Below, one piece after another: positions 4,723-21,766 of a stretch of DNA of 64,000 bases (position 1 is its first letter; each line of letters begins with the position of its first letter). The position numbers and the translations under genes were made by a program. Below the pieces are notes generated by a model. That model had not been told where the DNA came from and did no database searches. It worked only from the letters and a program-made list of their open reading frames with translations. The DNA lies in the NCBI GenBank assembly GCA_003151975.1, contig PLZD01000010.1, forward strand, positions 124,001 through 188,000, given 5' to 3'. The DNA comes from Elusimicrobiota bacterium. Its GTDB lineage: Bacteria > Elusimicrobiota > Elusimicrobia > UBA1565 > UBA9628.

Positions 4723-5418
4723 TTAGGCCTCGACGGTGCGCACGACGCTGAAAGCTTCGGCCGCCGCCAGCCCCGACTGGCCGCCGCGAACATAGGCCAG
4801 GGCCCGGATGTATTTCTCTGAACGGGGGTGCGGGAATGAGCGCATCTCGCCGCCGTAGGCCGAGAGCGCCGCGATCTTTCGTTCGAGGAAATTTGAAACG
4901 TCGACGAAAGCGTTCGGAGAAAACCCCGCGGCCGCGTCGAACCGCCACTCGGTTGCCGACGGAATCTCGAAAGACAAGACACTCCGGACGCTCGAGCCGG
5001 GAAGCGGACGGCAGGCCGTCTTGACCGCTTCGAGGGCCAATTGATGGTCGATGTTTAGGTCGCCGCCGCTGTGCGTGTAGACCGTGTCGGGCTTGAACTG
5101 GGCTACGACCGCCTCGACGGCCTGGACAAGCTTGAGGCGTGGCATCGAGTCGAACTGGTTGTCCGGGAAGTCCCGCAGGATCAGTTTCTCGACGCCCGCG
5201 ATCTTGTTGGCTCTCTGGGCGTCGGACCTCAGCTTCTTGAGCTCGGCCTTTTTCCTGGCGGCCGAAAGGCCTTGGCGGGAGGTCACGCCCTCGCCGAGGA
5301 TCAGGGACCAGACGCGGGCGCCCTCGGCGGCGCGCCGCGCCACGGTCGCGCCGCAGCCGAGGAGTTCGTCGTCGGGATGCGCCGCGACCACCAGGATGCG
5401 GGCGGGTCTAGCGGGCAT
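4723..5418 (-). CDS. PIG-L/LmbE family deacetylase
   Basis: 231 residues. Zinc-dependent N-acetyl-sugar deacetylase family: the metal motif AHPDDE is at residues 13-18, and THSGGDLNIDHQLA supplies the downstream histidines. Start ATG 5418 overlaps the aminotransferase by 11 bp. Canonical pseudaminate and legionaminate operons use an acetyltransferase and a UDP-sugar hydrolase at this stage. Here a deacetylase sits between the aminotransferase and the synthase, so it may remove an N-acetyl group from the intermediate or the finished sugar. That would leave an amine for another acyl group (inference). Confidence 0.9.
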   Translation of the reverse strand: MPARPARILVVAAHPDDELLGCGATVARRAAEGARVWSLILGEGVTSRQGLSAARKKAELKKLRSDAQRANKIAGVEKLILRDFPDNQFDSMPRLKLVQAVEAVVAQFKPDTVYTHSGGDLNIDHQLALEAVKTACRPLPGSSVRSVLSFEIPSATEWRFDAAAGFSPNAFVDVSNFLERKIAALSAYGGEMRSFPHPRSEKYIRALAYVRGGQSGLAAAEAFSVVRTVEA

Positions 5419-6547
5419 GGGCCTTGGCGCCGAGAGCGTCGAGAGTCTTGCGGAGCGCGGCGATCACCTCGTCCTGCTGGGCGCGCGCGAGTCCGGGGTA
5501 GATGGGCAAGGAGATGATGCGCGAGTAGAAATCCTCCGCCTTGGGGCAGAGTCCCTTCTTGTAGCCCAAGCGCTCGTAGAATGGATGGAAATAAACCGGA
5601 ATGTAATGGACCTGCACGCCGATGCCCGCGCGTCGCATGGCCTGAAAAATATCGCGGCGCTTGGAGGCGAGCGCGCCGCGCAAGCGGATCACATACAGGT
5701 GCCACGCCGAGTCTTCGACGGCGCCGACGCGCGGCTCGAGCTCCGCCCAGCTGTTGAAAGCCTCGTCGTAGCGTCGCGCGATCTCTCGTCTGCGGGCGAT
5801 GAAACCGTCGAGCTTGGCAAGCTGGCTTAGGCCCAGGGCCGCCTGCATGTCGGTCAGCCGGTAGTTGAGTCCTTGAGACTCGACCGCGTACAGCCAATCT
5901 TCGCTGCGCTTGATGCCGTGCGTGCGAAATTCGGAGAGCTTTTCCCGGAAGCCGGCGTCGTCGGTGAGCACCGCGCCGCCCTCGCCGGTCGTGATCGATT
6001 TTACGGGATGAAAGCTGAACACGGTCATGTCGCTCACCGACCCGATCTTGCGCTTCGCAAGGTCCGCTCCCAGCGCGTGGCAGGCATCCTCAATGAGCAC
6101 GAGGCCCTTGGCCTTGGCTAGGCGCTTAAAGGCGGCAAGATCGGCCGGGCGCCCCCCGAAGTCGACGGGGACGATCGCGCGGGTCTTGGGGGTCAGGTGC
6201 CTGAGGCAAGAATCGTGATCGAGATTTCCGGTGGTCGGATCGATATCGGCGAAAACGGGCTTGGCGCCCTGCCAAAGGCCGGCCGTCGCGGTGGAGGCGA
6301 AAGTGATCGGCGAGGTGACGAACTCGTCGCCGGATTTAAGGTCCGCGGCGAAGTAGGCCGCTTGCAGCGCCGCGGTCCCGTTGGCAAAGACGACCGCGTG
6401 TTTGGCGCCGCAGTAGGCCGCCAGCTCTCGCTCGAACTCCTCGACCTTAGGCCCTTGGGTCAGCCAGTCCGAGCGCAGGGTTTCCGAGACGGCTCGGATG
6501 TCCGCTTCGTCGATGGTCTGCCGGCCGTAGGGGATGCGGACGGTCAT
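5408..6547 (-). CDS. pseC: DegT/DnrJ/EryC1/StrS aminotransferase, PseC-like
   Basis: 379 residues, PLP-dependent. The N-terminus IPYGRQTIDEADI followed by LRSDWLTQGPKV is typical of PseC, which aminates UDP-4-keto-6-deoxy-AltNAc. The PLP lysine is K183 in VFSFHPVKSITTGEGG; the cofactor-binding ANGTAALQAA and LIEDACHALGA are also present. It lies 4 bp downstream of the PseB-like dehydratase, the order found in pseudaminic acid operons. The symbol is assigned on family resemblance plus this context. A LegC or Per-type role for another 4-keto-sugar is the main alternative. Confidence 0.85.
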   Translation of the reverse strand: MTVRIPYGRQTIDEADIRAVSETLRSDWLTQGPKVEEFERELAAYCGAKHAVVFANGTAALQAAYFAADLKSGDEFVTSPITFASTATAGLWQGAKPVFADIDPTTGNLDHDSCLRHLTPKTRAIVPVDFGGRPADLAAFKRLAKAKGLVLIEDACHALGADLAKRKIGSVSDMTVFSFHPVKSITTGEGGAVLTDDAGFREKLSEFRTHGIKRSEDWLYAVESQGLNYRLTDMQAALGLSQLAKLDGFIARRREIARRYDEAFNSWAELEPRVGAVEDSAWHLYVIRLRGALASKRRDIFQAMRRAGIGVQVHYIPVYFHPFYERLGYKKGLCPKAEDFYSRIISLPIYPGLARAQQDEVIAALRKTLDALGAKAHAR

Positions 6548-6551
6548 GCGT

Positions 6552-7604
6552 TCAGGACTCGACGGCCAGGCCCTCTGGGTGCGGATCTCCCATCATGTCC
6601 TTGAGTTCCTTGGACGAGAGCCAGCGGTCGTTGGTCTCGCTTGAGTAGCGGAAGCCCTCGGGGAGCGCTTCGCCGTTCCAGGCGTTCTGGGCGACCCAAG
6701 GGAAACGGAACGCGGGCTCGATGACGAAACAGTCTCCGACGTCCTTGCTGCGCGCCGACTCGTCTTCGGTGAGCAGAACCTCGTGAATCTTTTCGCCCGG
6801 CCGCGTGCCGACGATCTTAATCTCGCAGTCTGGGCCGATGGCCTTGGCCAGGTCCATGACGCGCATGCTGGCGATTTTCGGCACGAAAACCTCGCCGCCT
6901 TGCATCTGGGATAGAGCCTTCATCACGAGATCGACGCCCTGGTCCAAGGTGATCCAAAACCTGGTCATGCGCTCGTCGGTCACCGTCAGAACCCCGGTTT
7001 TGCGCTTTTCGAGAAACAGCGGGATCACGCTGCCGCGCGAGCCGACGACGTTGCCGTAGCGCACGACGGCAAACCGCGACTTCGCGCCGCCGGCGTAATA
7101 ATTGCCAGCGACGAAGAGCTTCTCGGCGCACAGCTTGGTCGCGCCGTAAAGATTGATGGGATTGACCGCCTTGTCGGTGGAGAGGGCCACGACGCGCGAA
7201 ACGCCCTGATCGACCGCCGCGTTGATGACGTTCTCGCCGCCGATGATGTTGGTGAGCACAGCCTCGAAGGGGTTGTATTCCAGGGCCGGGACCTGCTTGA
7301 GGGCCGCGGCGTGGACGACGAAGTCGATGCCGTGGAAGGCGCGCTGAAGGCGCTGAAGGTCGCGGACGTCGCCGAGCAGAAATCGCAGACGCGGGTCGCG
7401 GAATTCGCGGACCATCTCCGACTGCTTGAGCTCGTCGCGGCTGAAAACCACGATCTTTCGCGCCTTGGTCTTCTCAAGAACGGTCTTGATGAAGCGCTGT
7501 CCGAAAGAACCCGTGCCTCCCGTGACTAGGATGGACTTATCCTTCAAGAACCCGTAGTCGCGGCTGGAATGGTGTCCGTTGGAGGACGGCTGGGTCTTCT
7601 TCAT
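6552..7604 (-). CDS. pseB: UDP-N-acetylglucosamine 4,6-dehydratase, inverting (PseB-like)
   Basis: 350 residues, extended short-chain dehydrogenase. NAD-binding TGGTGSFGQ at 28-36, then the CapD/PseB-type active site STDKAVNPINLYGATK (D144, K145, Y153) and a C-terminal SSETNDRWLS, as in PseB. It would convert UDP-GlcNAc to the 4-keto-6-deoxy-AltNAc derivative, the first step to pseudaminate-type sugars. The ~20-residue N-terminal extension before FLKDKSILVTGG is short and polar. First gene of the unit driven by the TATAAT/inverted-repeat promoter at 7622-7642. Confidence 0.9.
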   Translation of the reverse strand: MKKTQPSSNGHHSSRDYGFLKDKSILVTGGTGSFGQRFIKTVLEKTKARKIVVFSRDELKQSEMVREFRDPRLRFLLGDVRDLQRLQRAFHGIDFVVHAAALKQVPALEYNPFEAVLTNIIGGENVINAAVDQGVSRVVALSTDKAVNPINLYGATKLCAEKLFVAGNYYAGGAKSRFAVVRYGNVVGSRGSVIPLFLEKRKTGVLTVTDERMTRFWITLDQGVDLVMKALSQMQGGEVFVPKIASMRVMDLAKAIGPDCEIKIVGTRPGEKIHEVLLTEDESARSKDVGDCFVIEPAFRFPWVAQNAWNGEALPEGFRYSSETNDRWLSSKELKDMMGDPHPEGLAVES

Positions 7605-9317: not shown

Positions 9318-10153
9318 GCCGTTTTCCTCGTCGACCGCGCGCCGATGTCCTTGAGCGCCGCGCGAAACGGCCTACCGGGACTTAGGACGGGAGAGGGTGC
9401 CTCGATCATGTCGCTCGAGGCCGCGCCGGACCGCCGCTCGACTGGGCTCCCCGGGCACAAGACCGAGGCGACTGCGTCGAGCATCTGCGCGAGCGTCGGG
9501 GTCTCGGATCCGGCCACGATGTGGACGCCGTCGAGGTTGCGCTCCAAGGCCTCCGCGACGGCCGCGGCCGCGTCGTGAACATACGCATAGTTCCGCCGTC
9601 CCTGCCCGGGACCCAGCAAGGTCGGCGCCCGTCCTTCGAGGGCCGACATGATCGCGCGGTTGAGCCCGAGATGCGAGGGCCCGTTGAGGCCGAAGATTCC
9701 GGCAAACCGCAGCGCGGTCCAAGGCACGCCGGCGCTGGCGAGGGCCTCTTCGGCCTCGAGCTTGGCGCGGCCGTACGGCGTCGCCGGGGCGGCGGGCGTG
9801 CCGGCGTCAACGCGCGCCGCCTCACCGTAGACGGCGACGCTGCTGGCCAAGACCAAGCGCGCGCCCCAAGCCTTCGCGATCGTCGCGAGCTTTTTGATGG
9901 CGTCGCGGTTGGTCGACGTGAAAATCGAGGCGTCGGCGTCCGGCCGAAGATCGACGCGGCTTGCCAGATGGAGGATCGCGTCGCAAGGAGCCAGCTTCTC
10001 GATCTCGGCGGGCCAGGCGTCATCGTCGAAATCGAGCGGGACCTGGGCGCTCTTGTCCCGGCCGCAGGCGAGGGTTTCCCAGCCGCGGTCGCGCAACAGC
10101 GCCGTCACGGCTTTTCCCAAAAAGCCGCCTGCGCCCGTCACGAGCGCCCTCAC
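9311..10153 (-). CDS. NAD-dependent epimerase/dehydratase family protein
   Basis: 280 residues from GTG 10153 (GTGA overlap with the ABC gene). Extended SDR: VTGAGGFLGKAV for NAD(P) binding, HLASRVDL, then S-S at LASSVAVYG and the catalytic YxxxK in TPYGRAKLEAEE. The shortened C-terminal half and the RRNYAYVHDAAAAV segment match nucleotide-sugar epimerases/reductases. It most likely acts on a keto-sugar made in the locus; sub-activity cannot be assigned. The base composition matches its neighbours. Confidence 0.85.
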   Translation of the reverse strand: MRALVTGAGGFLGKAVTALLRDRGWETLACGRDKSAQVPLDFDDDAWPAEIEKLAPCDAILHLASRVDLRPDADASIFTSTNRDAIKKLATIAKAWGARLVLASSVAVYGEAARVDAGTPAAPATPYGRAKLEAEEALASAGVPWTALRFAGIFGLNGPSHLGLNRAIMSALEGRAPTLLGPGQGRRNYAYVHDAAAAVAEALERNLDGVHIVAGSETPTLAQMLDAVASVLCPGSPVERRSGAASSDMIEAPSPVLSPGRPFRAALKDIGARSTRKTAC

Positions 10154-11844
10154 GAGAGGCTCACCCTCTGGTCGGCGATGGAAAGCAAAGCGCTGCGGTG
10201 GGTCGCCGCGACGATGGTCATCTCGCCCTTGACCTTGAGGAGGGTCTGAACGAGTCTCAGCTCCGTCTCCTGGTCGAGGTTCGAGGTCGCCTCATCGAGC
10301 ACGAGAACCTTAGGGCGGCGCAGGAAGGCGCGCGCCAAGGAGAGCCGCTGCTTCTGACCCGCGGAAAGACCTTGGCCTTGCTCGGTGATCTTGTACTCGA
10401 GGCCTCCCGCGAGCTGGGACACGAAGCCGCACTCGGCCTTGGCCAGCGCGGCCTCGAAATCGCCGGCGCTGGGCTCGCGCGAAAGGCCGTACAGGAGATT
10501 CTCCCGGATGGTGCCTTCGACGAGCAAGCTTTCCGGTCCGACGTAGCCGATGAGCGGATAGAGCCGAGGGCGGAACTCGGCCAGCGGCGCCGTCGAGCCG
10601 TCGGCCAAGACCACCGAAATCGAGCCGCGCTCGGGCACGAGGCCGCCCAGCAGAAGGTTGAGCAAAGTGCTCTTCCCCGAGCCCGACGGCCCGGTGAACA
10701 CGAGACATTGGCCGGGGGACAGTTTAAGGCTTAAGCCTTCAATGACCGGAGCGTCCACCGACGGATAGCGAAAGCGCACATCCTTAAGCTCCCAGCCGAC
10801 CGGGCCCGCTCCGCTGGCGGAGGGTACCGCCGCCGGCGCTGCAGAGGCGGCGAGCGCGGCTTCGCCGCGCGCGGCCTCCTGCCACCAGCGCCAGACGATC
10901 AAGGTCTCGGGCCAGTTGCGCAGCACCGTCGAGACGGAGCCGTTCATCGTCGAAAGAAGTTGGAGCAGGCGGATCACGAGATAAAAGTAGGAGACCAGGA
11001 CGCCGGGGCTCGTCTTGAAGGCGCCGCGCGCGGCCAGCGTGATGACGCAGATCAGAAGCACGCCGACGACTTGCGGCAGCGCGACCTTAAAGCCGGTCAA
11101 CCGGTGATGATAGAGCGCGCGGCTGTCGTAATCCTCGAGCGCCGAGAGCGCGCGGCCTTCCTCGAGGCCTTGCGTGCCGTAGATCTGGATCAGAAGAAGA
11201 TTCCTGATGCTGATCACCATGCGGCGGCTGGTCTCGTCGAGCGAACGCACGAGCACGCCCACCGTCTCGACGATCCGACGGTCGGCGACGCGGATCGGCG
11301 GATAAAGCATGAGCATCGCGACGGCCACGATCATGGTCAGTTTGAAGGAGATGGCCAGCAGTGCGACCAGGATCATCAGCGCGGAAGTCGCCTGGACCGC
11401 GAGAAACTGGAGACTGTAGACCAAAGCCGCGCTATTGTTGGTCCACTCGTTGAAGAGCATCGTGGCCTGGTGGGTGCTCACCGACTCGCTGTGGAAGGCC
11501 CAGCGCAGCACGCGCGCCCGCATGATGTGGCGAAACTTTTCCTGGACGGCCGAGGGCATGTAAACTTGGAGCCAATTCATGAGCCCGCGCAGGATGCCGA
11601 CGACGAGGATGAAGACGAGCACGGCGGTCAGATTTGTCTGCGGCATCCAGGCCGGCAGGGAGACCGCGCCGGGCACGACGATGCCGGCCGCGACGAGGAA
11701 GGCTTGCAGGGCATAGGCGAAAGCGAGCTCGACGGCAAACGTGGTCACGCCGACGATCGTGCCCAGCTTCAGGTATGACGTGACCTTCGGGCCGAGAAAG
11801 TCGGTCAGCTTGCGCCGGTTGGCGACGATTTCGAGGCTGTTCAT
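10150..11844 (-). CDS. ABC transporter, fused membrane and ATPase domains (lipid-linked glycan flippase-like)
   Basis: 564 residues. Transmembrane domain about 1-310 with six likely helices, and nucleotide-binding domain about 350-564. Walker A GPSGSGKST (K391), signature LSAGQ (493-497), Walker B VLVLDEAT (513-520). The Q-loop reads IGYVGPESLLVEGT where YVPQ is usual, so the canonical glutamine is missing. Half-size exporters of this build include PglK and MsbA, which flip lipid-linked sugars or lipids; that is the inferred role. A paralog with the same Q-loop change is at 38157-39881. The leader is very short: the ATG follows the operator repeat by 2 bases. Confidence 0.88.
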   Translation of the reverse strand: MNSLEIVANRRKLTDFLGPKVTSYLKLGTIVGVTTFAVELAFAYALQAFLVAAGIVVPGAVSLPAWMPQTNLTAVLVFILVVGILRGLMNWLQVYMPSAVQEKFRHIMRARVLRWAFHSESVSTHQATMLFNEWTNNSAALVYSLQFLAVQATSALMILVALLAISFKLTMIVAVAMLMLYPPIRVADRRIVETVGVLVRSLDETSRRMVISIRNLLLIQIYGTQGLEEGRALSALEDYDSRALYHHRLTGFKVALPQVVGVLLICVITLAARGAFKTSPGVLVSYFYLVIRLLQLLSTMNGSVSTVLRNWPETLIVWRWWQEAARGEAALAASAAPAAVPSASGAGPVGWELKDVRFRYPSVDAPVIEGLSLKLSPGQCLVFTGPSGSGKSTLLNLLLGGLVPERGSISVVLADGSTAPLAEFRPRLYPLIGYVGPESLLVEGTIRENLLYGLSREPSAGDFEAALAKAECGFVSQLAGGLEYKITEQGQGLSAGQKQRLSLARAFLRRPKVLVLDEATSNLDQETELRLVQTLLKVKGEMTIVAATHRSALLSIADQRVSLS

Positions 11845-11846
11845 GC

Positions 11847-11867
11847 GTTCACAGATTGAACATTATA
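11847..11867 (-). promoter_or_regulatory. Promoter with inverted-repeat operator upstream of the ABC transporter
   Basis: The minus strand reads TGG, then TATAAT (11862-11867, an extended -10 TGn-TATAAT), then GTTCAATCTGTGAAC (11847-11861), then two bases and the ATG at 11844. The GTTCA-N5-TGAAC core is exact. The -10 box contains the TAA stop of the gene upstream. Layout matches the promoter at 7622-7642: the repeat covers the expected start of transcription, a classic repressor position (inference). The predicted 5' leader is only ~10 bases. Confidence 0.65.
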
Positions 11868-12975
11868 CCATGCGCGGGCCGCGCCGATCGGGAAGGTTCA
11901 AAGACGCCGGGCCGTCCCCGTCGATGTCGGAGCGCGTGCAGTGAATGAGGCCGAGAGCAGGGCGCTCAAGGCCCTTGGACGCAAACCACGCGAGATTCTG
12001 TTCGCGCCGCAGGTGCTGCAGCGGCGTCAGGCGTGAGGGGAGGATCTGGCGTTCGACGGGCTCCTCGTTTCCTCCGGCCTCCTGCGCCGTGGCGTTGAAC
12101 GCGTCGTGCGAGCCGACGAAATCGGCGAACGCGCAACCCGCGGATTTGAGTTCTGATAGCGCCGCGCCCAGCGCCGCTCGTCCATCGAGGCGCCCTTGCT
12201 CGTCGAGAGGGTGGTAGAGGTCGACGATGCGGCCGGCCAGTCCTTGCGCGGCGCCGAAGATGCGCTCGACGCGAAAGACGCAGACGGCCGGACGCTCGGG
12301 CGCGCCGCGCAGTTCGACGCGGTACTCGAAGAACGGATGCGACAGGTAGCGCCACCGCAGGTAGTCGAGCGAGCGCACCGTGCCGAAAGCGCGCTCGAAA
12401 TACAGCGTCCAGTCGGGGCGGTAGGAATTTCCATCCACGGCGGCGTCCGTGTCGGAGACTTCGACCGTTTTGGGCGCGCAGAGAAATGGGGAGAGGGCGT
12501 CGCGCGAAGACTCGGGCCCGAGCAACGGCGCGCAGGCCTCGGCGTCGAAGACGAAGAGTCGGCGCGGCACGCGCGCCTCGAGCGTCCAGCCCATCGCGCT
12601 GAGCAGCGGTCCGCCCTGCGCGCTCGTGTTGACCGATAGCGCCACGGGGAATCGCTCCATGAGCTTGCGGTGCAGAAGCCAGCCCAGACCCTTGGGCGCC
12701 TCCGGGCGGACCATCCAATAAAGCGTCCAGACCGAGTCGAGAGTTTGATCCGGCGCGCCCCAAAAAACAGGCCAGCGCAGATAGCCGAGAATGCCTTGGA
12801 GTTCGCCTTCGTCCCACGCCGACAAGATTGGAGAGTTTCCATCGGTGCCGATGCGGAACTGCCAATCGAAAAACTCGCGCGAGGCGACCGCGATGTCGGG
12901 GCGATAGCGCTCCTTAATGAACGCGAGCATGCGGGGCCAGTCCGACATCGGAAAGGTCTCCCGAATCTCGAGCAT
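11863..12975 (-). CDS. GNAT-like acyltransferase, function unknown
   Basis: 370 residues from ATG 12975, 15 bp after the acyl carrier protein gene. The fold pattern is GNAT/FemAB-like: ILGYLRWPVFWG as a beta-rich core, WMVRPEAPKGLGWLLHRKLM resembling the acetyl-CoA pyrophosphate loop, then SAMGWTLEARVPRRLFVFD. A second half (ERAFGTVRSLDYLRWRYLSHP) suggests a duplicated domain. I do not recognise a named family. Its position at the end of the acyl module (ACP, FkbH-like, MaoC-FabG) makes it the best candidate for moving the ACP-bound acyl group to a sugar amine (inference). Confidence 0.7.
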   Translation of the reverse strand: MLEIRETFPMSDWPRMLAFIKERYRPDIAVASREFFDWQFRIGTDGNSPILSAWDEGELQGILGYLRWPVFWGAPDQTLDSVWTLYWMVRPEAPKGLGWLLHRKLMERFPVALSVNTSAQGGPLLSAMGWTLEARVPRRLFVFDAEACAPLLGPESSRDALSPFLCAPKTVEVSDTDAAVDGNSYRPDWTLYFERAFGTVRSLDYLRWRYLSHPFFEYRVELRGAPERPAVCVFRVERIFGAAQGLAGRIVDLYHPLDEQGRLDGRAALGAALSELKSAGCAFADFVGSHDAFNATAQEAGGNEEPVERQILPSRLTPLQHLRREQNLAWFASKGLERPALGLIHCTRSDIDGDGPASLNLPDRRGPRMV

Positions 12976-12990
12976 GACGCGGAAGCGGGG

Positions 12991-13224
12991 TCAGCCCGCG
13001 AGCTTCTCGCCGAGCATCAGGCGGATGAGCTTGAAGCTTTGGAGCTCCACGATCTCACCCTCCTTGAACTTGACGCCGAACTCGTCCTCGAGCGCCATGA
13101 CGAGCTTGATGTGGTTGAGCGAGTCCCATTTTTCGAGCCTGGCGGGGGTGGTGCTCTCGTCGATCTCGGAGGGCGGGACCTCGAAGACCGCGGCCATGAC
13201 GGACTTGATGCGCTTGTCGTTCAT
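12991..13224 (-). CDS. Acyl carrier protein
   Basis: 77 residues from ATG 13224, overlapping the FkbH-like stop (ATGA). The sequence EKWDSLNHIKLVMALEDEFG contains the phosphopantetheine site Ser35 in the DSL motif, followed by the acidic helix II of ACPs. It would carry an acyl thioester for this module. It is separate from a fatty-acid operon: no ketosynthase or malonyl transacylase gene is in the window. The nearest partners are the FkbH-like protein and the MaoC-FabG fusion. Confidence 0.92.
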   Translation of the reverse strand: MNDKRIKSVMAAVFEVPPSEIDESTTPARLEKWDSLNHIKLVMALEDEFGVKFKEGEIVELQSFKLIRLMLGEKLAG

Positions 13225-14966
13225 CGCGCGCGCGCGGAGGCGTCCGCTTTGAGGACTTCGATGTAGGCGATTGCGCTGGGTCGATACTCCGAGAGCGCTA
13301 GCTCGTACTCGCGGACCTTCGCGTCGGAGCGGATCAGCCGGAACGAGCACTTCTCGAAGAAATCCGCGGCGGGGCCGTTTTTGGCGGTGCGCTCGTGGCG
13401 CGCGCGAAGATGCCGCACGCCCGCGGCCCGCAGTTCGTCGACGAGATGATCCATGAAGGCGAACTCGATGTTGCGCCCGATGACGCGGCAACTTATTAAG
13501 AAGGTGTCGACGACGGCCTCGTCCGCGGTTTGGCCCGGCAGGACGATGGAAAGTCCCGTCACGCCGTTGTCGCCGAACTTGTCGGAGGCGGAAAATGCGA
13601 AGAGCCGCGCCGCCGGAATTTCGAGCATGCGCGAGATGTCCGACTCGGTATGGCGCTTGGTGGTGGCGTTGAACTGGTTGGTCTTCTGGCAAAGCTGGGC
13701 CATGCGTGCGGTCAGGGACTTGTCGTTTTCGAAGACGGCGACGCGCTGCTCGAGCGAGGCGAGATACTCCTCGACCGAGACGAAGGCGGCCCGCTTCTCG
13801 GCGCGGTCGCCTTGCTCGCGGTAGAGTTCGGTGCGCCGGAGGTCCTCGGCGGTGGGCGCCGCGGATGCGAAGAAACCAGCGAGCTTGCGAAGCAGGCGCG
13901 GATAGTCCTCGAGCTTCTCGGGTGTCTGTAGAACGCGGACTTGCGGCAGCTGCGCGCGAACGAGCTCCGCCTCGAACGGCGAGTCGTCGACGAAGACGAG
14001 GCTGTCGAGTCCGATGTTGAGTTCGGAGGCGATCTCCCGAAGGTTCTGCGCCTTGTCGGCCCAGTTGATCCTCTTTGCGGCGATCGTCTCGGGCCGCAGC
14101 AGCATGTCCGGATGGCGCTCGAGCACGGCAGCGACGTCTTCAGAAGAATTCTTCGAGCAAAGCCCGAGCAGAACGCCGCGGCGCTGCAGCGAGAGCGCGA
14201 TGCTCTGGATTTCGGCGAAGACCGCGCCTTCGGGCGTCGTCGGCGACATCTTGAGGCCCTCGGCGCCGTCTTCTCCGAGAACGCCGCGCCAGAGCGTATT
14301 GTCGCAGTCGAATATGAGCGCCTTCTTAGCGCGACCCGTCGCCGCGAGCACGGGGCCCAGCGCTTCCTCCGCCCAGGCTTTGTAGAACTCGATGGTGTAG
14401 AGCGCCTTGGAAGAGTTGTAGTAGCGGAAGTCGACGCTCTTCTCGAGGCCCACCTCGGCGAAGAGTTTGTCGGTGTCGATGAGCCGCGCGTTTTTCGGAA
14501 GCAGGTCCTCGAGCCGCGCGTTGAGCCGGCGGCTCAGCTCCTCGAGGCGGCTAGCACCCGCGAAAGGCAGCGCAGAAAAGCGATTCACCAAGATCAGCGG
14601 CACGTCCGCGAGGTTCCGGACCACGAGCTCGAGCTCTCCTGTGGTCTTGTCCTCGAGCGCCTTGAGCGCGTCGTCGTCGAGCAGTTTCGCGTCGCGGTGG
14701 AGCCCGTCTACGATATTGCCGAGTTCCCAGAAAATCGCGATCAGCGGCGCATTCTTTAAGCGGGCGCTGTCCTGCACGATGTTGTCATACTCGCCGACGA
14801 CTGCCTTGGCAGGCAGGCCCTCGGCGCGCAGGGCGTATTCCAGGATATCCTTGACGAGTCCGATCGTCGTGTTCGAGAGGACGGCGGCCTCATACGGCTT
14901 GGTCTCGGGCGTGGGCGTCAGCTCCCGGTTGCGGCGAAGGATCTCGGTGTACTTGAGGTCCCTCAT
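13221..14966 (-). CDS. FkbH-like HAD-IIIC family protein with C-terminal GNAT domain
   Basis: 581 residues. Residues ~1-205 form the FkbH N-terminal helical/SGNH-like region (IAIFWELGNIVDGL). The HAD domain begins at LIFDCDNTLWRG (D220, D222), with CSKNSSEDV and VFVDDSPFEAELV as later HAD motifs. The C-terminal ~150 residues are GNAT-like (LSIVLPGQTADEAVVDTFLI, FMDHLV). FkbH enzymes take 1,3-bisphosphoglycerate and load a glyceryl unit onto an ACP. With the ACP next to it, a glyceryl- or hydroxyacyl-ACP is the expected product (family knowledge plus inference). Confidence 0.9.
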   Translation of the reverse strand: MRDLKYTEILRRNRELTPTPETKPYEAAVLSNTTIGLVKDILEYALRAEGLPAKAVVGEYDNIVQDSARLKNAPLIAIFWELGNIVDGLHRDAKLLDDDALKALEDKTTGELELVVRNLADVPLILVNRFSALPFAGASRLEELSRRLNARLEDLLPKNARLIDTDKLFAEVGLEKSVDFRYYNSSKALYTIEFYKAWAEEALGPVLAATGRAKKALIFDCDNTLWRGVLGEDGAEGLKMSPTTPEGAVFAEIQSIALSLQRRGVLLGLCSKNSSEDVAAVLERHPDMLLRPETIAAKRINWADKAQNLREIASELNIGLDSLVFVDDSPFEAELVRAQLPQVRVLQTPEKLEDYPRLLRKLAGFFASAAPTAEDLRRTELYREQGDRAEKRAAFVSVEEYLASLEQRVAVFENDKSLTARMAQLCQKTNQFNATTKRHTESDISRMLEIPAARLFAFSASDKFGDNGVTGLSIVLPGQTADEAVVDTFLISCRVIGRNIEFAFMDHLVDELRAAGVRHLRARHERTAKNGPAADFFEKCSFRLIRSDAKVREYELALSEYRPSAIAYIEVLKADASARAR

Positions 14967-16183
14967 AGCATGACTTGGCCGCCGTTAACGCGGATGGTCT
15001 CGCCGGTCAGGAAATTGGATTTCTCGGAGACGAGGAAGCTCACTGCGCCCGCGACATCCTCGGGACGGGCGATGCGCTGCAGAGGCGTCTGCGCTTCGGC
15101 GAGCAGCCGCGCCTTCTCGGGTATGCTGGAAATGAGCGGCGTGTCGGTCATGCCGGGAGAAACAAGGTTGACGCGGATGCCCAGCGGGGCGAGTTCGACG
15201 GCCATCGCCTTGGCCATGCCGGACAGTGCCGCCTTGGCCGTGATATAGTGCAGCCATTGCGGGCTGGGCCGCTCTACGGCTTGGCTCGTCAGGAACACGA
15301 TCTTGCCGTAGCGGCGCTCGGCCATCGCGGGGACCGCGAATTTCTGCAGAAGAAACGCGGTCTTGACGTGCGTGTCTAGCTGTTCCTGAACGCTGTCCCA
15401 GCCGAGGTCGCGCAGGCGGATGTTCGGGATGTCGCCGCCTCCACAATGCACGAGCGTGGTCAGCCCGCCGAGGCGCTTAAGGCAGGACGCGATCAGTTCC
15501 TCGGCCTGCGCGGGAGTTTCCAGTTCGGAGCCCAGGGCGAGCGCTTTGCGGCCCAAGCCCGTGATCGTGCGCGCGAGAGTCCTGGCGGCCTCGGAACTGC
15601 GGCGATAGTGGACGGCGACGTCAAAGCCGTCGCGCGCGAGCTGCAGCGCCACGGCCGAACCAATGCCGCCCGTCCCGCCGACGACGAGCGCGGTCTTGCG
15701 CGCGGTTTTTAGTCGAGGCGCCGCCGCGGGCTTGGCCGCGCCCCGCGATTCATGCGCCGCGCCGTTCTTCTCCGGGCCTAGGACTCGAACCTTGGCGGTC
15801 CCGGTCGTGACCTTTTGGCGGCTCTGGTTGAAGATATCGGTCGTCAGTTCGATGATGCGGTGGGCGTCGGACTTGCGGACGACTTGGGCGCGCACGGTGA
15901 TGGTGTCGCCCACGCGGACGGGCTGAAGGAACTCGAGATTCTGGGCGAACCATAGCGCGCCGTCGCCGGGCAGCTTGGTGCCGATGACCGTCGAGATGAA
16001 CGAGGCGCCAAGCATGCCGTGGGCCACGGGCTTCTTGAAGCGGGTCGTGCCGGCGAAGGCGGCGTCCACGTGCAGCTTGTTATCGTCGCCGGTCAGTTCG
16101 ACGAAGCGGTCGATGTCCCGCTGGGTGATCGCGCGCGAGAGCTGGGCCGAATCTCCGACGCGGATCGATTCGTAGCTCCTCAC
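14963..16183 (-). CDS. MaoC dehydratase - FabG reductase fusion protein
   Basis: 406 residues from GTG 16183. Residues 1-140 are a MaoC/(R)-specific hydratase hot-dog domain with GDDNKLHVDAAF (D33, H38) and PVAHGMLGASF. A linker ~140-163 rich in Ala and Lys follows. Residues 163-406 are an SDR reductase: VVGGTGGIGSAV, catalytic S300, Y313 and K317 in LHYITAK, and a C-terminal ETIRVNGGQVML. Together they would interconvert 3-keto, 3-hydroxy and enoyl thioesters. Overlap with the FkbH-like gene is ATGA. No ketosynthase lies nearby, so the substrate probably comes from elsewhere or from the FkbH product. Confidence 0.92.
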   Translation of the reverse strand: MRSYESIRVGDSAQLSRAITQRDIDRFVELTGDDNKLHVDAAFAGTTRFKKPVAHGMLGASFISTVIGTKLPGDGALWFAQNLEFLQPVRVGDTITVRAQVVRKSDAHRIIELTTDIFNQSRQKVTTGTAKVRVLGPEKNGAAHESRGAAKPAAAPRLKTARKTALVVGGTGGIGSAVALQLARDGFDVAVHYRRSSEAARTLARTITGLGRKALALGSELETPAQAEELIASCLKRLGGLTTLVHCGGGDIPNIRLRDLGWDSVQEQLDTHVKTAFLLQKFAVPAMAERRYGKIVFLTSQAVERPSPQWLHYITAKAALSGMAKAMAVELAPLGIRVNLVSPGMTDTPLISSIPEKARLLAEAQTPLQRIARPEDVAGAVSFLVSEKSNFLTGETIRVNGGQVML

Positions 16184-16190
16184 GGCCGGG

Positions 16191-17267
16191 CTAGGCGTCC
16201 ATCTCGACTTCGGTGCCTTGGCGGTCGTGCAGCTTCTTCTTGTCCCAGTTTTCCATCTTCTCGATAACGTTGTAGAAGGTGGTGTACGGCGAGGGCGTGC
16301 GCACGAGGAAGCCGTCCTTGACCTCTTCCTTGAAATTGAAGGTCTCGACCCAGTAGTCGCACGGCCCGCAGAACGAGATCTCGTCCCACTTGCCGGTGTT
16401 GTGCAGGTCGCGTAGGCGCTGCATGGGAGCCGCGTTCCAGACCGCTCCGACGCCGCCGTCGGTGAAGACGTTGCCGAGCACGATGTTGTCGGGATTCTCG
16501 GCGGTGATGACGCACGGAGTCACTTCACCGTTGGCGCGGATGACGATATCGCGGAAGATCTGCTTGCAGGGCACGCGTTCGGGCAGCATCTCGCGGGTCC
16601 ATCCGGGGATGTAGCTCACGTCAGGCCGGCCGTCCTTGATGTAGCCGGTGACGCGGACCACGTCGATGCGCTTCTTCCAGAATTCCAGGAAGGCGGGCAG
16701 TTCGTGGTGGTTGTAGTCGGTGATGACGAAGGTGGTGCCGATGCGGGGAAACTGCTTGTCGCCGCGGACGCGCACGAGGGTCTCCACGTTGCGCACGAGA
16801 ACGTCGAGCGCCGTGATGCCGCGGGCGAGCTTCAAGGTTTCGGGGGTCGCCGCGTCGACGCTGACGTTGATTGAGTCGTACTTCGTGTCGACGAGCAGGT
16901 GGGCGATGGCCTCGTTGATCGAGAGGCCGTTGGTGTTGAAGGTGCCCGAGAGGCCGGCGTCCTTGACCTTCTTGACGGCGTAGCGGAAGGTCGGCGCGAT
17001 CATGGGCTCGTTGGCGACGTTGAGCGTGATCGAGGGCTTGTGGGGCGCGACCTCGTCGATGATGGCGTCCACCTGGGCCTCGGTCATCGAGGTCGGGTTC
17101 TTGTAATACTCAGGATAGTTTTCGGGCTGCTTCTTCTCGGGGCTGTGGTGCCGGCAGTGAGGGCACTGCAGGTTGCAGGTGTTGGTCAGCTCGAGACGGA
17201 CGATCTCGGGCATCTTTTTGTGCTTGAGCGTCGGGATCGTCTTTTCTGTCGAAGGGGCCGTTTTCAT
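16191..17267 (-). CDS. Radical SAM/SPASM domain protein
   Basis: 358 residues, start ATG 17267 after AGGAG. The [4Fe-4S] motif CNLQCPHC gives C31, C35 and C38; LNVANEPM and NTNGLSI are the barrel motifs. Auxiliary-cluster cysteines appear late: VPCKQIF, TPCVITA and SFCGPCDYW, as in SPASM proteins. These use 5'-deoxyadenosyl radicals on peptides or sugars (e.g. dehydrogenation or epimerisation). It lies between the C-methyltransferase and the MaoC-FabG fusion, so a role on a sugar or on the acyl module is likely; substrate unknown. Confidence 0.88.
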   Translation of the reverse strand: MKTAPSTEKTIPTLKHKKMPEIVRLELTNTCNLQCPHCRHHSPEKKQPENYPEYYKNPTSMTEAQVDAIIDEVAPHKPSITLNVANEPMIAPTFRYAVKKVKDAGLSGTFNTNGLSINEAIAHLLVDTKYDSINVSVDAATPETLKLARGITALDVLVRNVETLVRVRGDKQFPRIGTTFVITDYNHHELPAFLEFWKKRIDVVRVTGYIKDGRPDVSYIPGWTREMLPERVPCKQIFRDIVIRANGEVTPCVITAENPDNIVLGNVFTDGGVGAVWNAAPMQRLRDLHNTGKWDEISFCGPCDYWVETFNFKEEVKDGFLVRTPSPYTTFYNVIEKMENWDKKKLHDRQGTEVEMDA

Positions 17268-17278
17268 TTCATGATCTC

Positions 17279-18502
17279 CTAAAGTTTAACCTGCACCGCG
17301 ACGGACAACGCTCGCGGGCTTCCTGGAAGAATGGATGCGAACTTGCCTCCGCGCTTGATGAAGGCGGGGTTCTTGGCGATGACCTTGTCCTCTGATTCAG
17401 GATTGAAAGCCATCAGCGCCCAAGTGATGTTTTCGCGGTCCAGTGCGTCGGAACCGAGGATGGGCAGGCGCGAACCCGGCATGCGCAGCCCCTTTTTGTT
17501 TGGATTGTCATCGATGAAGCAGGAAATTTGCGCGCCGAGGCCCATGAGGTTGACCCAGACCGTGCCGAGATGCCCCGCGCCGAAGACCGCGATCTTTCCC
17601 CCGACGTCCAGCACGCCGCCGGCCCAGGATTTGAGCTCGCGGCGTTTCTCATCGAGCCCGGCCGCGAAGCCGCGGGCCAGCGCGAGGGCGGCGTCCCGCG
17701 ATTTGGCGGAGGGCTCTTGCTTGGCGTCGAGCTTGGCGACGGCCACCAGTGAGTTCTCGAGAGCGTACGGGTGCTCCTCGAAATGTTCGACCGCGCCGCC
17801 GAGAGTCTGGATGGTCGCGCGGAAAGTGCCGGCGGTCAGGTAGAGCGAGTGCTCTTCCCAGAGCATGATGTAATCGGAGTCGCGCATGGCGCGCTCGCAG
17901 TCCGGAACCTCGATGAGCACGCGGCCGCCGGGCTTGGCCAAAGTCTTGAGCGCTTCGAAGAACTCGGTCGGCTCGTGGCAGTGCTCGAAAATGTGCCGCG
18001 CGATGACAAGATCGGCCGGACCGTGGATCGCCGCGATGGCCGAGGCCGCGCCGACCGTCAAGCGCGTCTGCACCGTCTCGACGAAGGCGCGCGAATCGGA
18101 TTCCCCGAGATCGTTTTGCGGATCGATGCCCCAGGCGTTCTTGACGCCGCGCTCGCGCAAGCGGCGCAGCAGCGACTCGTCCTTGGGGCTCACGCCGCAG
18201 ATGGCGGAGTTGGGGCCTATGCCGGGCATCTTGAGAATGCGGTCGGCCAGCCCGTCGAGATGCGGTTCGGGCTCATTGTAAGTGATCCAGTCGCAATGCG
18301 GCTTGAGCTCGCCGGCCGGAGGCGGGCTGAGCAACTGCGCGACGCCGCAGGACGCGCAGGCACCCCACCGCATCGGGTGCGTGTACTCGGGCTCGGCGGC
18401 GCTCTTTGGAAACCGGTTGCACAGCGGCTGCTCGCCGAGATCGAGCAACAGCTCGACCTCAATCTTGCGACACACGAGGCACGCCGTCTTCTTGGTCGTC
18501 AT
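17279..18502 (-). CDS. Class I SAM C-methyltransferase (TylC3/NDP-hexose C-methyltransferase type)
   Basis: 407 residues. N-terminal zinc-ribbon-like segment CLVCRK and CASCG (four cysteines within the first ~55 residues), central methyltransferase domain with HIFEHCHEPTEFFEAL, and a C-terminal Rossmann-like domain with VFGAGHLGTVWVNLM and CFIDDNPNKKGLRM. This three-part layout is that of sugar C-methyltransferases that act on 4-keto-deoxysugars. The usual SAM loop is degenerate (ICGVSPKDESLLRR), so binding may differ. It lies 1 bp after the aminotransferase gene. Confidence 0.82.
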   Translation of the reverse strand: MTTKKTACLVCRKIEVELLLDLGEQPLCNRFPKSAAEPEYTHPMRWGACASCGVAQLLSPPPAGELKPHCDWITYNEPEPHLDGLADRILKMPGIGPNSAICGVSPKDESLLRRLRERGVKNAWGIDPQNDLGESDSRAFVETVQTRLTVGAASAIAAIHGPADLVIARHIFEHCHEPTEFFEALKTLAKPGGRVLIEVPDCERAMRDSDYIMLWEEHSLYLTAGTFRATIQTLGGAVEHFEEHPYALENSLVAVAKLDAKQEPSAKSRDAALALARGFAAGLDEKRRELKSWAGGVLDVGGKIAVFGAGHLGTVWVNLMGLGAQISCFIDDNPNKKGLRMPGSRLPILGSDALDRENITWALMAFNPESEDKVIAKNPAFIKRGGKFASILPGSPRALSVAVQVKL

Positions 18503-18503
18503 G

Positions 18504-19643
18504 TCAGGGCTTCAAAGGCGCCTTACCCGGGAGCTTGGGTCCCAAGGTCCTCAGGACCTCGACGGTGCGCTCGGCAAATTCAATCGGGAGGTCGGGTCCG
18601 CTCGGCAGGAAGATGCCGTGGCGCGCGAAGCGCCGGGAGCTCGGAAAATCGCAGCCCTGCGCGCCGAGGTGCGCGGAGCGATCCAGATCGGGCAAAAACG
18701 GCCGCACTTGAATGTTGTGCTCGGCCAGAAGCTTGACCATCGCGCCGCGGTCGGAGACCAGCGCCTCGACCCAAAGCGGAATGTTGCCCTGCTCTTCCTT
18801 GACGGTCATGACCTCGACGAAATCGAGATCGGCGAGCGCCTCACGGTAGTAGTGGTAGAGCTTGAGGTGCGCGCGCTTCTTGGCCTCGAGCTTGCCGAGC
18901 TGGACGAGGCCGATAGAGGCGAGCACGTCGTTGAACTTGAGATTGAAGCCGAAGCGCTCGTAGGAAGCCACGAAAGTGTTGTCGACGCCGTGGTTCCGGT
19001 GCAGCTGCAGCTTCTCGTAGAGCTCGCGGCTGCGCGTGACGACGACGCCGCCCTGGCCGGTGGTGATGTACTTGGTCACGCCGAGCGAGAAACAACCGAG
19101 ATCGGATTGCGCGCCGAGAAAACCACCTTTGTTTTTCGAGTAAAAGCCTTGCGCCGCGTCCTCGATGACGAGCAGGCCGCGCTTCTTGGCGACGGTGTTG
19201 ATCTTGCCCATGTCGACCGAGTTGCCGTTGAGGTGCACGGCGACTATGGCCTTGGTTTTCTTGGTGAGGCGCGCCTCGACGGCGTCCTCGTCGATCAGAG
19301 TGTCATTTTTCTGCGTGTCGACCAGGCGGATCGAGCCGCCCGCGAGCATCATCGCGTGCGCGGTCGCCACGAAAGTGCGGTTGGGCAGAATGACTTCGTC
19401 GCCGGGCTGGATACCCGCCGCGGCCGCCGCGAGATAAAGCGCGGCGCTGCCCGATGTCGTGCAGACGGCGTACGGCACGCCGAGCACGGCGGCAAAGCGC
19501 CGCTCGAATTCCTCGGTGACCTTGCCCATGCTCAGGCTGCCGGACATTATGGATTCGCGAATCTGGTCGGCTTCGGGCGCGCCGACCTCCGTCTTCCAGT
19601 ACGGTACTTTGGGCGCTGCGGCGGTTTTCGCGGTAGTCTTCAT
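18504..19643 (-). CDS. DegT/DnrJ/EryC1/StrS family sugar aminotransferase
   Basis: 379 residues. N-terminal MSGSLSMGKVTEEFERRFA, GSAALYLAAAAAGIQPGDEV and VIEDAAQGFYS; the PLP lysine is K191 in FSLGVTKYITTGQGG. The lysine context (G-V-T-K) differs from the usual H-P-x-K, which marks a distinct subfamily, perhaps acting on a 3-keto-sugar. It would transfer an amino group from glutamate to a nucleotide-linked keto-sugar. Neighbours are an epimerase upstream and a C-methyltransferase downstream, an arrangement like that for branched amino-deoxysugars. Confidence 0.88.
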   Translation of the reverse strand: MKTTAKTAAAPKVPYWKTEVGAPEADQIRESIMSGSLSMGKVTEEFERRFAAVLGVPYAVCTTSGSAALYLAAAAAGIQPGDEVILPNRTFVATAHAMMLAGGSIRLVDTQKNDTLIDEDAVEARLTKKTKAIVAVHLNGNSVDMGKINTVAKKRGLLVIEDAAQGFYSKNKGGFLGAQSDLGCFSLGVTKYITTGQGGVVVTRSRELYEKLQLHRNHGVDNTFVASYERFGFNLKFNDVLASIGLVQLGKLEAKKRAHLKLYHYYREALADLDFVEVMTVKEEQGNIPLWVEALVSDRGAMVKLLAEHNIQVRPFLPDLDRSAHLGAQGCDFPSSRRFARHGIFLPSGPDLPIEFAERTVEVLRTLGPKLPGKAPLKP

Positions 19644-19646
19644 GGC

Positions 19647-20507
19647 CTACTTGGCGACGAGCGCTCCTTGCAGGCCTGCGGAGAGAGGCGTGAACGCGAG
19701 CTTCGGCAGCACGCGCCGCAGCAAGGCGTTATCAAAAGCATGGTCGGCCTTGGCCTTCGTGCGCGGACGGCTCTCGGTCGTTGGATTCGGGGCGAGCTTG
19801 GCGACCTCAGTCAGCACATCCTGAAAAGTGACGCTGTGGCCGCTGACGAGGTTCAGCACGCCCGAGAAGTCGCTCTCGAGCAGGCCCGCGATCGCGGCGC
19901 AGACGTCGTCGATGAAGATGAACTCGCGCTTCTCGAGGCCGTCGCCCCAAACGGTCACGGTCTCGCCTTTGGACGCCGCGCGCAGAAAGCCCATCGGGCC
20001 GTAGGGCCGGCCCGGCTCGTCGGCGCCGTAAATCGTCGCGGGCCGCAGGACGACGAGCGGCGAGGTCTTCTTGCCTTCGACGGCTTTAATTAAGATTCTC
20101 TCGCACGCGAATTTTGCCATGCCGTAGTAGGAAGTCGGATTGACGGCCGTGGCTTCCAAGATCGCCGTGTTGTGCGTGTCTTCGCCGTAGACGGCCGTCG
20201 AGCTGAAATAGATGAAGCGCGAGACCGCGCCGTCCTTGAGCAGCGGCGAGAGGTTGGCCGCCATGGCGACGTTCTTCTGGTAGTTCTCGAGCGTGTCGCC
20301 GGCTTGGCGCTTGATGGCCGAGCACATGACGACTGCCGTGCCGGGGACGAAGTATTCAGCGAGGCGCTGGCAATCCTTGGCCTTGGTCAGGTCGATATCG
20401 GCCAGCGAGAGCCCCGAGACTTCGAGACCGCGGGTCGCGAGGACGCGCCGCAAGTTCGCGCCGACAAAGCCGGTGTGGCCGAGGATCAGGATGCGGCTGA
20501 CTTTCAT
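19647..20507 (-). CDS. NAD-dependent epimerase/dehydratase (nucleotide sugar)
   Basis: 286 residues. Rossmann loop ILGHTGFVGANLRR at the N-terminus, then YFSSTAVYGED and the catalytic pair in SYYGMAKFACE (Y-x-x-x-K), followed by LRPATIYGADEPGRPYGPMG and EFIFIDDVCAAI. Shape and length match sugar 4-ketoreductases or epimerases. It overlaps the C-methyltransferase stop as ATGA and lies 3 bp before the aminotransferase, so it works on the same deoxy-amino-sugar. Confidence 0.87.
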   Translation of the reverse strand: MKVSRILILGHTGFVGANLRRVLATRGLEVSGLSLADIDLTKAKDCQRLAEYFVPGTAVVMCSAIKRQAGDTLENYQKNVAMAANLSPLLKDGAVSRFIYFSSTAVYGEDTHNTAILEATAVNPTSYYGMAKFACERILIKAVEGKKTSPLVVLRPATIYGADEPGRPYGPMGFLRAASKGETVTVWGDGLEKREFIFIDDVCAAIAGLLESDFSGVLNLVSGHSVTFQDVLTEVAKLAPNPTTESRPRTKAKADHAFDNALLRRVLPKLAFTPLSAGLQGALVAK

Positions 20508-21766
20508 AGCACCTCAACCTTGGGAAGCGGCGTGATGAACTGAACTCCCTGCGCGCGCAGCGCGCCGTGCTTCTTTAGGATGGGCTCGGCGTAGCGCCAC
20601 GGCAGGATGACGACCGCGTCGGGCTTCTTGTCGTAGAGCGCGGATGAGGGTAAAACCGGCACGCGATGGCCCGGGCTGTAGGTGTGGTGCTTGCGTGGAT
20701 TGTCGTCGACGATGTAGTCGAGATGCTTGGCGCAGTCGAAATAGTGCAGGAGCGTGGTTACGCTGTGCGAGGCGCCGTAGCCGGCGACCGTCTTGCCTGC
20801 GGCCTTGAGGTCTTTGAGCATCGCGTTGAGCTCGGCCTTGATGCCATCGAGGTGTTTGCCGAGGTCGCGGTAGGTCGAGATTTTGTCGAGGCCGAATTCT
20901 TTTTCGCGCTTGATGAACTCGGCGACCGAGGCGTCAACTTTGCGCGGGCCGCCCTTGAGCTGCACTGTGCCGCGCAGCGAGCCGCCCTTGGTCTCGACGC
21001 GCTCGCAATGAATGAGCTCGAGGCCGTGGCGCGCGAAAAAGGGCACGAAGGGCTCGACCGAATGATACGAGGTGTGCTCGTGATAAATATTGTCGAAGAC
21101 TTTGTTCTTGATCGTGTCGAGCAGGTAGCCGCTCTCGAAGCTAAACACGCCGTCGGGGGCCAGCAAGGTGCGCACGCCCGCCATGACGTCGTCAAGCACG
21201 TCGATGTTGGCGATCACGTTGTTGGCGCAGACAATCGAGGCTGCGCCCTTCTCGGCGCGGATTTTCTTCGCGAGAGCCTCGGTGAAATACTCGGGCCAGG
21301 TCTCGACGCCGGAGGCGGTCGCCTCAGAGGCGACCTTGCGCGCCGGATCGACGCCGAGCGTCTTCATGCCGTGTTTTTGGAACGCGCGCAGCAATGTGCC
21401 GTCGTTGGAGCCGAACTCGACGACGAGCGAGCCCTTTTTGGTCTTGAGCCGCTCGACAACGGAGGCGGCGTACGCGTCGAAGTGGTCCTGCAGGCCGAGC
21501 GAGGTCAAAGTGACGTAAATGTAGTCGCGATAGAGAATGTCGGGATCGACGACGTCGAGCAAATGCGCGTGATGGCAGTCGCGGCAGAGAAACAATTCGA
21601 GGGGGAAGGATTCCTGCGCTTCCTTAAGACGCTCCTTGGGCCAGAAGGCATCGGCGACCGGGGTCGGGGCGAGTTTGAGCGCGAGATCGAGGTCCTTTCC
21701 GCCGCAAAGTCGGCAAGTCGTGCGGCGCACGCAGGACGGCTTGGCGAGAGATTCAGTTGATGCCAT
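20504..21766 (-). CDS. SAM-dependent sugar C-methyltransferase
   Basis: 420 residues. Zinc-binding N-terminal domain with CRLCGG and CRDCHHAH, SAM loop VVEFGSNDGTLL with GVDPARK, then NNVIANIDVLDD and the YHEHTSYHS motif of the TylC3/EvaC family. The C-terminal domain has VAGYGASHSVTTLLHYF and YIVDDNPRKHHTYSPG. It should methylate a ring carbon of an NDP-4-keto-deoxysugar, giving a branched sugar. A close paralog is at 45054-46295. First gene of the unit under the promoter at 21774-21809; its leader is only ~7 bases from the -10. Confidence 0.9.
   Translation of the reverse strand: MASTESLAKPSCVRRTTCRLCGGKDLDLALKLAPTPVADAFWPKERLKEAQESFPLELFLCRDCHHAHLLDVVDPDILYRDYIYVTLTSLGLQDHFDAYAASVVERLKTKKGSLVVEFGSNDGTLLRAFQKHGMKTLGVDPARKVASEATASGVETWPEYFTEALAKKIRAEKGAASIVCANNVIANIDVLDDVMAGVRTLLAPDGVFSFESGYLLDTIKNKVFDNIYHEHTSYHSVEPFVPFFARHGLELIHCERVETKGGSLRGTVQLKGGPRKVDASVAEFIKREKEFGLDKISTYRDLGKHLDGIKAELNAMLKDLKAAGKTVAGYGASHSVTTLLHYFDCAKHLDYIVDDNPRKHHTYSPGHRVPVLPSSALYDKKPDAVVILPWRYAEPILKKHGALRAQGVQFITPLPKVEVL

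Follow-up and report, generated by a model that had tools for sequence, protein, structure and literature searches.

The 64,000-nucleotide stretch analyzed here (the window) is part of contig PLZD01000010.1 of an Elusimicrobiota bacterium (assembly GCA_003151975.1, forward-strand positions 124,001 to 188,000), and on its minus strand, from 16183 to 11863, it carries a module of four genes encoding a fusion of a MaoC dehydratase with a short-chain dehydrogenase/reductase (SDR), an FkbH-type loader, an acyl carrier protein (ACP), and a GNAT-like protein. The module sits in a set of 21 codirectional genes (21766 to 623, minus strand) that also includes nonulosonate genes. At the 20 junctions between these genes the gaps are -16 to +40 bases (several starts were set by hand), so that the nonulosonate genes and the module appear to form a single transcription unit, which newly supports the link between them drawn in the original prediction. 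We give about an even chance to the reading that the module is a unit that supplies lactyl-ACP without a ketosynthase and transfers the lactyl group in the acylation of surface sugars; the three-carbon acid on the carrier is probably lactic acid.

The four-gene set had been named in an original prediction for this DNA, and profile comparisons bore it out, if weakly for its GNAT member. The fusion protein (14963 to 16183; 406 aa) joins a MaoC domain (PF01575, residues 14 to 115; motif GDDNKLH) to a FabG-like SDR domain (adh_short_C2, residues 172 to 402; YxxxK motif), both above the Pfam cut-off. The FkbH-type HAD-IIIC loader (13221 to 14966; 581 aa), which includes a BF1531-like region, scored 277.7 bits against NCBIfam TIGR01686 (cut-off, 146.65), and it matched the structure PDB 3slr (E = 6.6e-36). 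It has the HAD DxD aspartates and a C-terminal cysteine, which we take to be the residue that carries the acyl group; in our FkbH alignment the aspartates were present in 139/139 rows and the cysteine in 138/139, the remaining row having a gap at that position. The stand-alone ACP (12991 to 13236; 81 aa) matched PF00550 above the cut-off (29.3 bits), and its translation contains the DSL serine in a WDSL motif. The proposed acyltransferase (11863 to 12975; 370 aa) is divergent. A profile of its nine-sequence family gave 20 PDB matches at E <= 1, and PF00583 weakly matched two of the nine members at E <= 0.1. Because 19 of the 20 PDB matches were acetyltransferases, with a best E of 6e-4, we regard the GNAT assignment as likely but weak.

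The original prediction had also stated that the module contains no ketosynthase, which agrees with the finding that the window's contig (C26) gave no PF00109 or PF08541 match at all; the genome as a whole holds six PF00109 and five PF08541 places. The gene order in the window thus includes FkbH, a carrier, a dehydratase, and a ketoreductase with no ketosynthase on the contig, which is the set of a D-lactate-type loading system.

We measured the linkage of MaoC to FkbH in five samples, in which the FkbH family-model search covered the window's own phylum (FkbH in 17/294 genomes), the classes of an Oceanospirillum genome (G317; 25/369), a Rhodobacteraceae genome (G321; 27/289), and a Flavobacteriales record (G318; 24/198), and the phylum of an Omnitrophota record (G316; 31/193). 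The search found 139 FkbH places, from which 120 loci were counted, chosen regardless of MaoC. The 19 left out were the window, five members of the named set of loci found by similarity to the window (L015 to L017, L019, and L020), seven partial or contig-edge domains (G076 twice, G109, G049, G457, G1102, and G1209:C82), G361 and G1366 (below the cut-off), G1024 (a second site in the same region), and G1223, G1248, and G1262. MaoC matches below 60 bits, which were weak second stretches inside open reading frames (ORFs) already counted, were excluded. Loci from all sources with MaoC numbered 60 by domain distance and 61 by ORF distance, the sampled ones being 47 either way.

A MaoC ORF lay within 3 kb of FkbH in these 47 of the 120 sampled loci (8/15 in the window's own phylum, 5/26 in the G317 class, 9/30 in the G321 class, 16/30 in the G316 phylum, and 9/19 in the G318 class). 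This corresponds to 47 MaoC ORFs in 672,505 bp near FkbH versus 2 in 1,241,122 bp far from it, an ~43-fold difference in density (binomial p = 2e-19), and NeuB was present in 12/47 loci with MaoC versus 6/73 without it (Fisher p = 0.017), both p-values ignoring shared ancestry. SDR followed the same pattern, being found within 3 kb in 40/47 sampled loci with MaoC versus 8/73 without it, and of the 61 loci from all sources, 39 had it fused to MaoC and another 15 had one no more than 3 kb away. Mapping the MaoC label onto the FkbH tree took 32 changes, compared with a mean of 45 after shuffling; starred branches forced no fewer than 15 of the 32, and we concluded that the pairing of MaoC with FkbH recurs across lineages. 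The window FkbH falls in a starred nine-row clade drawn from several groups, eight rows of which have MaoC. A candidate acyltransferase was found within 5 kb in 36 of 60 loci with MaoC, several families being paired with the same core.

The module is not a chance grouping, since its genes are found side by side again in other phyla. In the Omnitrophota record L015 and in L268, a genome drawn from the same phylum, an epimerase, methyltransferases, a DegT protein, MaoC-SDR, FkbH, ACP, and a GNAT-like protein are encoded in the same order as in the window, the GNAT-like gene following the ACP gene in L015 and directly following it in L268; the radical SAM/SPASM protein of L015 is ~70% identical to that of the window, compared with only 47% for FkbH. 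Consecutive genes in Oceanospirillum (L016) encode an AbNAT, a methyltransferase, MaoC-SDR, FkbH, ACP, and a DUF4910 protein, and loci of Oceanospirillum, Rhodobacteraceae, and Prochlorococcus have a DUF4910 protein next to the module. The original prediction had proposed that conserved linkage beside pseB or neuB would support it, and linkage with pse or neu genes does recur, as does linkage with deacylases: in a genome of the window's own family (L183), PseC-, PseB-, MaoC-, FkbH-, GNAT-, and PIG-L-type genes are consecutive, with ACP and SDR matches nearby; PIG-L, FkbH, and NeuB co-occur again in L274 and L292; and the DUF4910 loci add further cases. A Niveispirillum plasmid (L301) carries consecutive genes for FkbH, ACP, a WcbI-family acyltransferase, and a protein annotated as SDR yet with the MaoC motif, the set being flanked by transposase and recombinase genes.

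In some loci the functions are joined in a single chain. MaoC, SDR, and ACP are fused in nine loci, and an N-acyltransferase is fused to FkbH in nine (AbNAT-FkbH in eight and AbNAT-FkbH-ACP in one), the fusions coming from Rhodobacteraceae, Loktanella, Rhizobiales, Prochlorococcus, Rubripirellula, and Stenotrophobium records and from L233, a genome of the G321 sample. Pfam confirmed AbNAT in both FkbH fusions scanned. Among three MaoC-SDR-ACP fusions scanned, it found MaoC and SDR in two, and a PP-binding match in one that was just below the cut-off. Support for the fused ACP part came mainly from a PDB profile search, all 38 matches being carrier proteins, from its invariant WDSL motif, and from the four helices of an AlphaFold model (mean pLDDT, 75.9); the catalytic residues are invariant across eight aligned fusions. 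The fold searches with the L020 fusion test neither MaoC nor ACP, because their matches cover the SDR domain alone (model residues ~153 to 385).

From these observations a route can be proposed in which FkbH would take a glyceryl unit from 1,3-bisphosphoglycerate, remove both phosphates, and load D-glyceryl onto the ACP, a chemistry known for the family. MaoC dehydratases act on 3-hydroxyacyl thioesters, of which glyceryl-ACP is one, and the MaoC domain would eliminate its 3-hydroxyl to give an enol that becomes pyruvyl-ACP. The SDR domain would then use NAD(P)H to convert pyruvyl-ACP to lactyl-ACP, and an acyltransferase would transfer the ACP-bound lactyl group onto an amino group, this enzyme being GNAT-like here and AAC(3)-like, MBOAT, or WcbI elsewhere. 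Such a route would employ every enzyme of the module and would require no ketosynthase. The bryostatin synthase BryA is said to begin with D-lactate through an FkbH loading module, and D-lactate loading modules of polyketide synthases (PKSs) reportedly use FkbH, a carrier, a dehydratase, and a ketoreductase for the starter, as the window would; their domains lie in a polyketide megasynthase, whereas those of the window belong to small proteins, stand-alone or fused, encoded among sugar genes. The excerpts of PMC4849084 and PMC8868522 hold nothing on the bryostatin starter, and a pathway tool, as excerpted in PMC7901079, writes FkbH loading as 1,3-bisphosphoglycerate plus ACP giving D-lactate-ACP.

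Several results weigh against this reading. The GNAT-like protein, searched singly, had no Pfam or NCBIfam match, and its structure model, built on a two-sequence alignment from which L018 was left out because of N runs in its frame, was unusable (pLDDT, 35.5). The GNAT-like family is moreover not special to MaoC, since it occurs within 5 kb of 4/47 sampled loci with MaoC and of 10/73 without it, and in 24 of 60 loci with MaoC the search for five families of acyltransferase gave no match. No SDR lies within 3 kb in 7 of the 61 loci with MaoC (two of them having the MaoC ORF at a contig end), and 17 of the 47 sampled loci match none of seven sugar-gene profiles. A DUF4910 gene lies within 5 kb in 13 loci with MaoC, 9 of which belong to the named set. 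A single similarity search with the window FkbH supplied eight of the nine MaoC-SDR-ACP loci, which thus are not independent samples, and a MaoC-SDR pair without FkbH occurs on a Sinorhizobium chiapasense plasmid in a context like that of acyl-CoA metabolism. Finally, our searches turned up neither a product nor an enzyme assay nor a glycan structure for any member.

The original prediction had favored a glyceryl or hydroxybutyryl group, and neither fits best, the MaoC and SDR pair predicting lactyl instead. We consider it unlikely that the module delivers glyceryl, or O-methylated glyceryl, with MaoC-SDR being accessory or acting elsewhere, although a precedent lies in Campylobacter jejuni. 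Strain NCTC 11168 makes 5-(2,3-di-O-methylglyceroyl)amino-pseudaminic acid and requires Cj1295 to do so, and its authors proposed that Cj1295 removes the 5-acetyl group (excerpts of PMC3068675). The locus includes the FkbH gene cj1302. In strain 12664 this gene is a pseudogene and the flagella are devoid of DMGA ions; these ions are absent also from strain 12661, which is without cj1301 (excerpts of PMC7099621). Like the window, the flagellin locus cj1293-cj1302 combines an FkbH-domain gene with a deacylase-type protein (Cj1295 is aminopeptidase-like) in a nonulosonate locus, and a three-carbon hydroxyacyl group replaces N-acetyl if the authors' hypothesis for Cj1295 holds; in the window too, FkbH and ACP lie inside a nonulosonate gene run. 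The excerpted C. jejuni papers report no MaoC-SDR, however, and the window has PIG-L and a GNAT-like transferase. We take Cj1295 to be a DUF4910 protein, a family with no match in the window, where PIG-L stands in its place. Delivery of glyceryl would also suit the 73 of 120 sampled FkbH loci without MaoC within 3 kb, and a methyltransferase stands in the Oceanospirillum row described above. It is hard to square with the fact that most loci with MaoC encode MaoC, SDR, and ACP as fusions or neighbors, with catalytic residues conserved, as it would have these enzymes ignore an ACP-bound glyceryl group. Because acyl exchange on a nonulosonate beside FkbH is known in outline from Cj1295 and cj1302, the claim of a new way to acylate a sugar was too strong for FkbH, a deacylase, and a nonulosonate, but the coupled MaoC and SDR pair beside FkbH does look new. 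Among the open-licence literature searched, we found no MaoC-SDR addition to FkbH sugar loci, no paper on lactyl-, lactoyl-, or pyruvyl-ACP or FkbH-like proteins that concerned surface sugars by its title or abstract, and none that combined FkbH, ACP, glycan, and gene cluster.

It is quite improbable that the acyl groups are of the 3-hydroxybutyryl type and come from host fatty-acid synthesis, with FkbH merely aiding carrier loading. The 3-hydroxybutyryl group is a common N-acyl substituent on bacterial amino sugars and nonulosonates (excerpts of PMC3210612), the SDR is FabG-like, and ketosynthases are present elsewhere in the genome, but the window's contig gave no PF00109 or PF08541 match, MaoC would remove a 3-hydroxyl rather than make it, and an FkbH with all its catalytic residues would be left without a role. 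The same pieces would also reach pyruvyl-ACP, and the seven loci without a nearby SDR would accord with an end product of pyruvyl-ACP, or of alanyl or another three-carbon derivative, with the SDR acting on the sugar; 39 of 61 loci fuse the SDR to MaoC, however, and 9 fuse it to both MaoC and ACP, which makes this a slightly poorer prospect still. Service to a secondary metabolite rather than a surface glycan appears the least probable, even though the FkbH enzymes described in excerpts of PMC7489565, PMC4979870, and PMC10143770 belong to polyketide or peptide pathways and the window has two ABC transporter genes. The window has many sugar enzymes and TIGR04372 glycosyltransferases, and a sugar gene was found in 30 of the 47 sampled loci with MaoC, none of which had a PKS-type ketosynthase motif or a giant FkbH ORF; modules of this kind are thus not confined to antibiotic clusters. 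In the tree clade that includes 7 of the 11 FkbHs lying in giant ORFs, 10/10 rows are without MaoC. The tetronate glycerate-utilization operon and the methoxymalonyl-ACP genes share with the window an FkbH and a stand-alone ACP for glyceryl-ACP (excerpts of PMC7489565), but those sets also include either a FabH-like enzyme or a methyltransferase with two dehydrogenases, and the window's contig has no FabH-type (PF08541) match. The tie of an ACP-bound, ketosynthase-free acyl route to sugar genes, as originally predicted, is supported.

As for the acceptor of the lactyl group, two sets of genes in the run point in different directions. Upstream of the module lie genes for a C-methyltransferase (Methyltransf_13/14; 20504 to 21766), an NAD-dependent epimerase/dehydratase family protein (19647 to 20507), a DegT-type aminotransferase (18504 to 19643; best NCBIfam model PseC, 208.7 bits, below the cut-off of 423.5), a second C-methyltransferase of the same Pfam type (17279 to 18502), and the radical SAM/SPASM protein (16191 to 17267) also linked in L015. 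Downstream come an ABC exporter half-transporter (10150 to 11844), an epimerase, a phosphoesterase (assigned by eye), an ATP-grasp protein, PseB (6552 to 7604; 486.7 bits, cut-off 407.75), PseC (5408 to 6547; 459.2 bits, cut-off 423.5), a PIG-L-type deacetylase (4723 to 5418), a NeuB-family nonulosonate synthase (3675 to 4721, start chosen by hand; NnaB, 362.2 bits versus a cut-off of 399.65, and PseI, 270.2 versus 340.25), WbqC, a methyltransferase, an aldo-keto reductase, and a PseF-like cytidylyltransferase (623 to 1375, start chosen by hand; 155.8 bits, cut-off 205.7), all on the minus strand. PseG, above its cut-off, lies ~0.9 kb beyond the left edge of the window. The pseudaminic acid set (PseB, PseC, PseH, PseG, PseI, and PseF) is incomplete, in that PseH had no match anywhere in the genome at E <= 1e-3 and the synthase and cytidylyltransferase score below their cut-offs. 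As the original prediction had it, a PIG-L protein (PF02585, 88.7 bits, with diacetylchitobiose deacetylase among its PDB matches) is found where an acetyltransferase is usual. In excerpts of PMC7874193, Aeromonas group III flagellar islands likewise have a GlcNAc-PI de-N-acetylase, a GNAT, and an acyl dehydratase among pse/neu genes; these excerpts mention no FkbH and state no product.

The failure to find PseH and the presence of PIG-L would favor the PseC product or a nonulosonate as the acceptor. The closest relatives of the module, L015 and L268, point elsewhere, since they have the sugar block and no NeuB profile match in their 18- to 22-kb loci; the acceptor may therefore be the DegT amino sugar rather than a nonulosonate. 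We consider a 4-amino sugar of the DegT/C-methyltransferase block the more likely acceptor. Mycobacterium intracellulare serotype 7 reportedly has a 4-(2-hydroxypropanoyl)amido sugar.

Other features of the region also concern glycans. The ABC half-transporter at 10150 to 11844 and a second at 38157 to 39881 have similar N termini by eye, each within a glycan gene run. TIGR04372-family glycosyltransferases are encoded at 62677 to 63939 (216.9 bits) and 36448 to 38160 (226.4 bits), and L015 and L268 each have a relative of the former slightly downstream of the module. A TIGR04324 "sporadic carbohydrate cluster" 2OG-Fe(II) oxygenase (47992 to 48846; 287.5 bits, cut-off 150) and its neighbors, a transketolase pair and DegT genes, look like an uncharacterized carbohydrate cluster. 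The split transketolase pair (48848 to 50617) and an E1-dehydrogenase/transketolase-C pair (56546 to 58620) lie among sugar genes and possibly serve branched sugars. To the left of the window on the same contig (L302, 8084 to 11575; G000:C26), NeuD-, NeuC-, and NeuA-like genes, recognized by eye at their N termini, perhaps belong to a second nonulosonate pathway.

Many unusual N-acyl groups occur on bacterial surface sugars, and their biosynthesis is mostly unassigned. We tentatively suggest, at somewhat less than even likelihood, a widespread surface-glycan pathway in which glycolysis, by way of 1,3-bisphosphoglycerate, would directly supply lactyl for the amines or hydroxyls of sugars along a carrier-protein route, with no CoA and no ketosynthase. 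A core of FkbH, MaoC-SDR, and ACP would combine with exchangeable transferases (GNAT-like, AAC(3)-like, MBOAT, and WcbI) and with deacylases (PIG-L and DUF4910) acting beforehand to remove the acetyl group, the presence of MaoC-SDR giving lactyl and its absence glyceryl. If this is true, gene content alone would reveal the three-carbon acid with which a strain decorates its sugars, and the small ACPs and "fatty-acid" enzymes found in glycosylation islands would be explained. The core would provide a carrier-protein tool for glycan engineering, and the methylglyceroyl case of C. jejuni would gain a place in a broader family.

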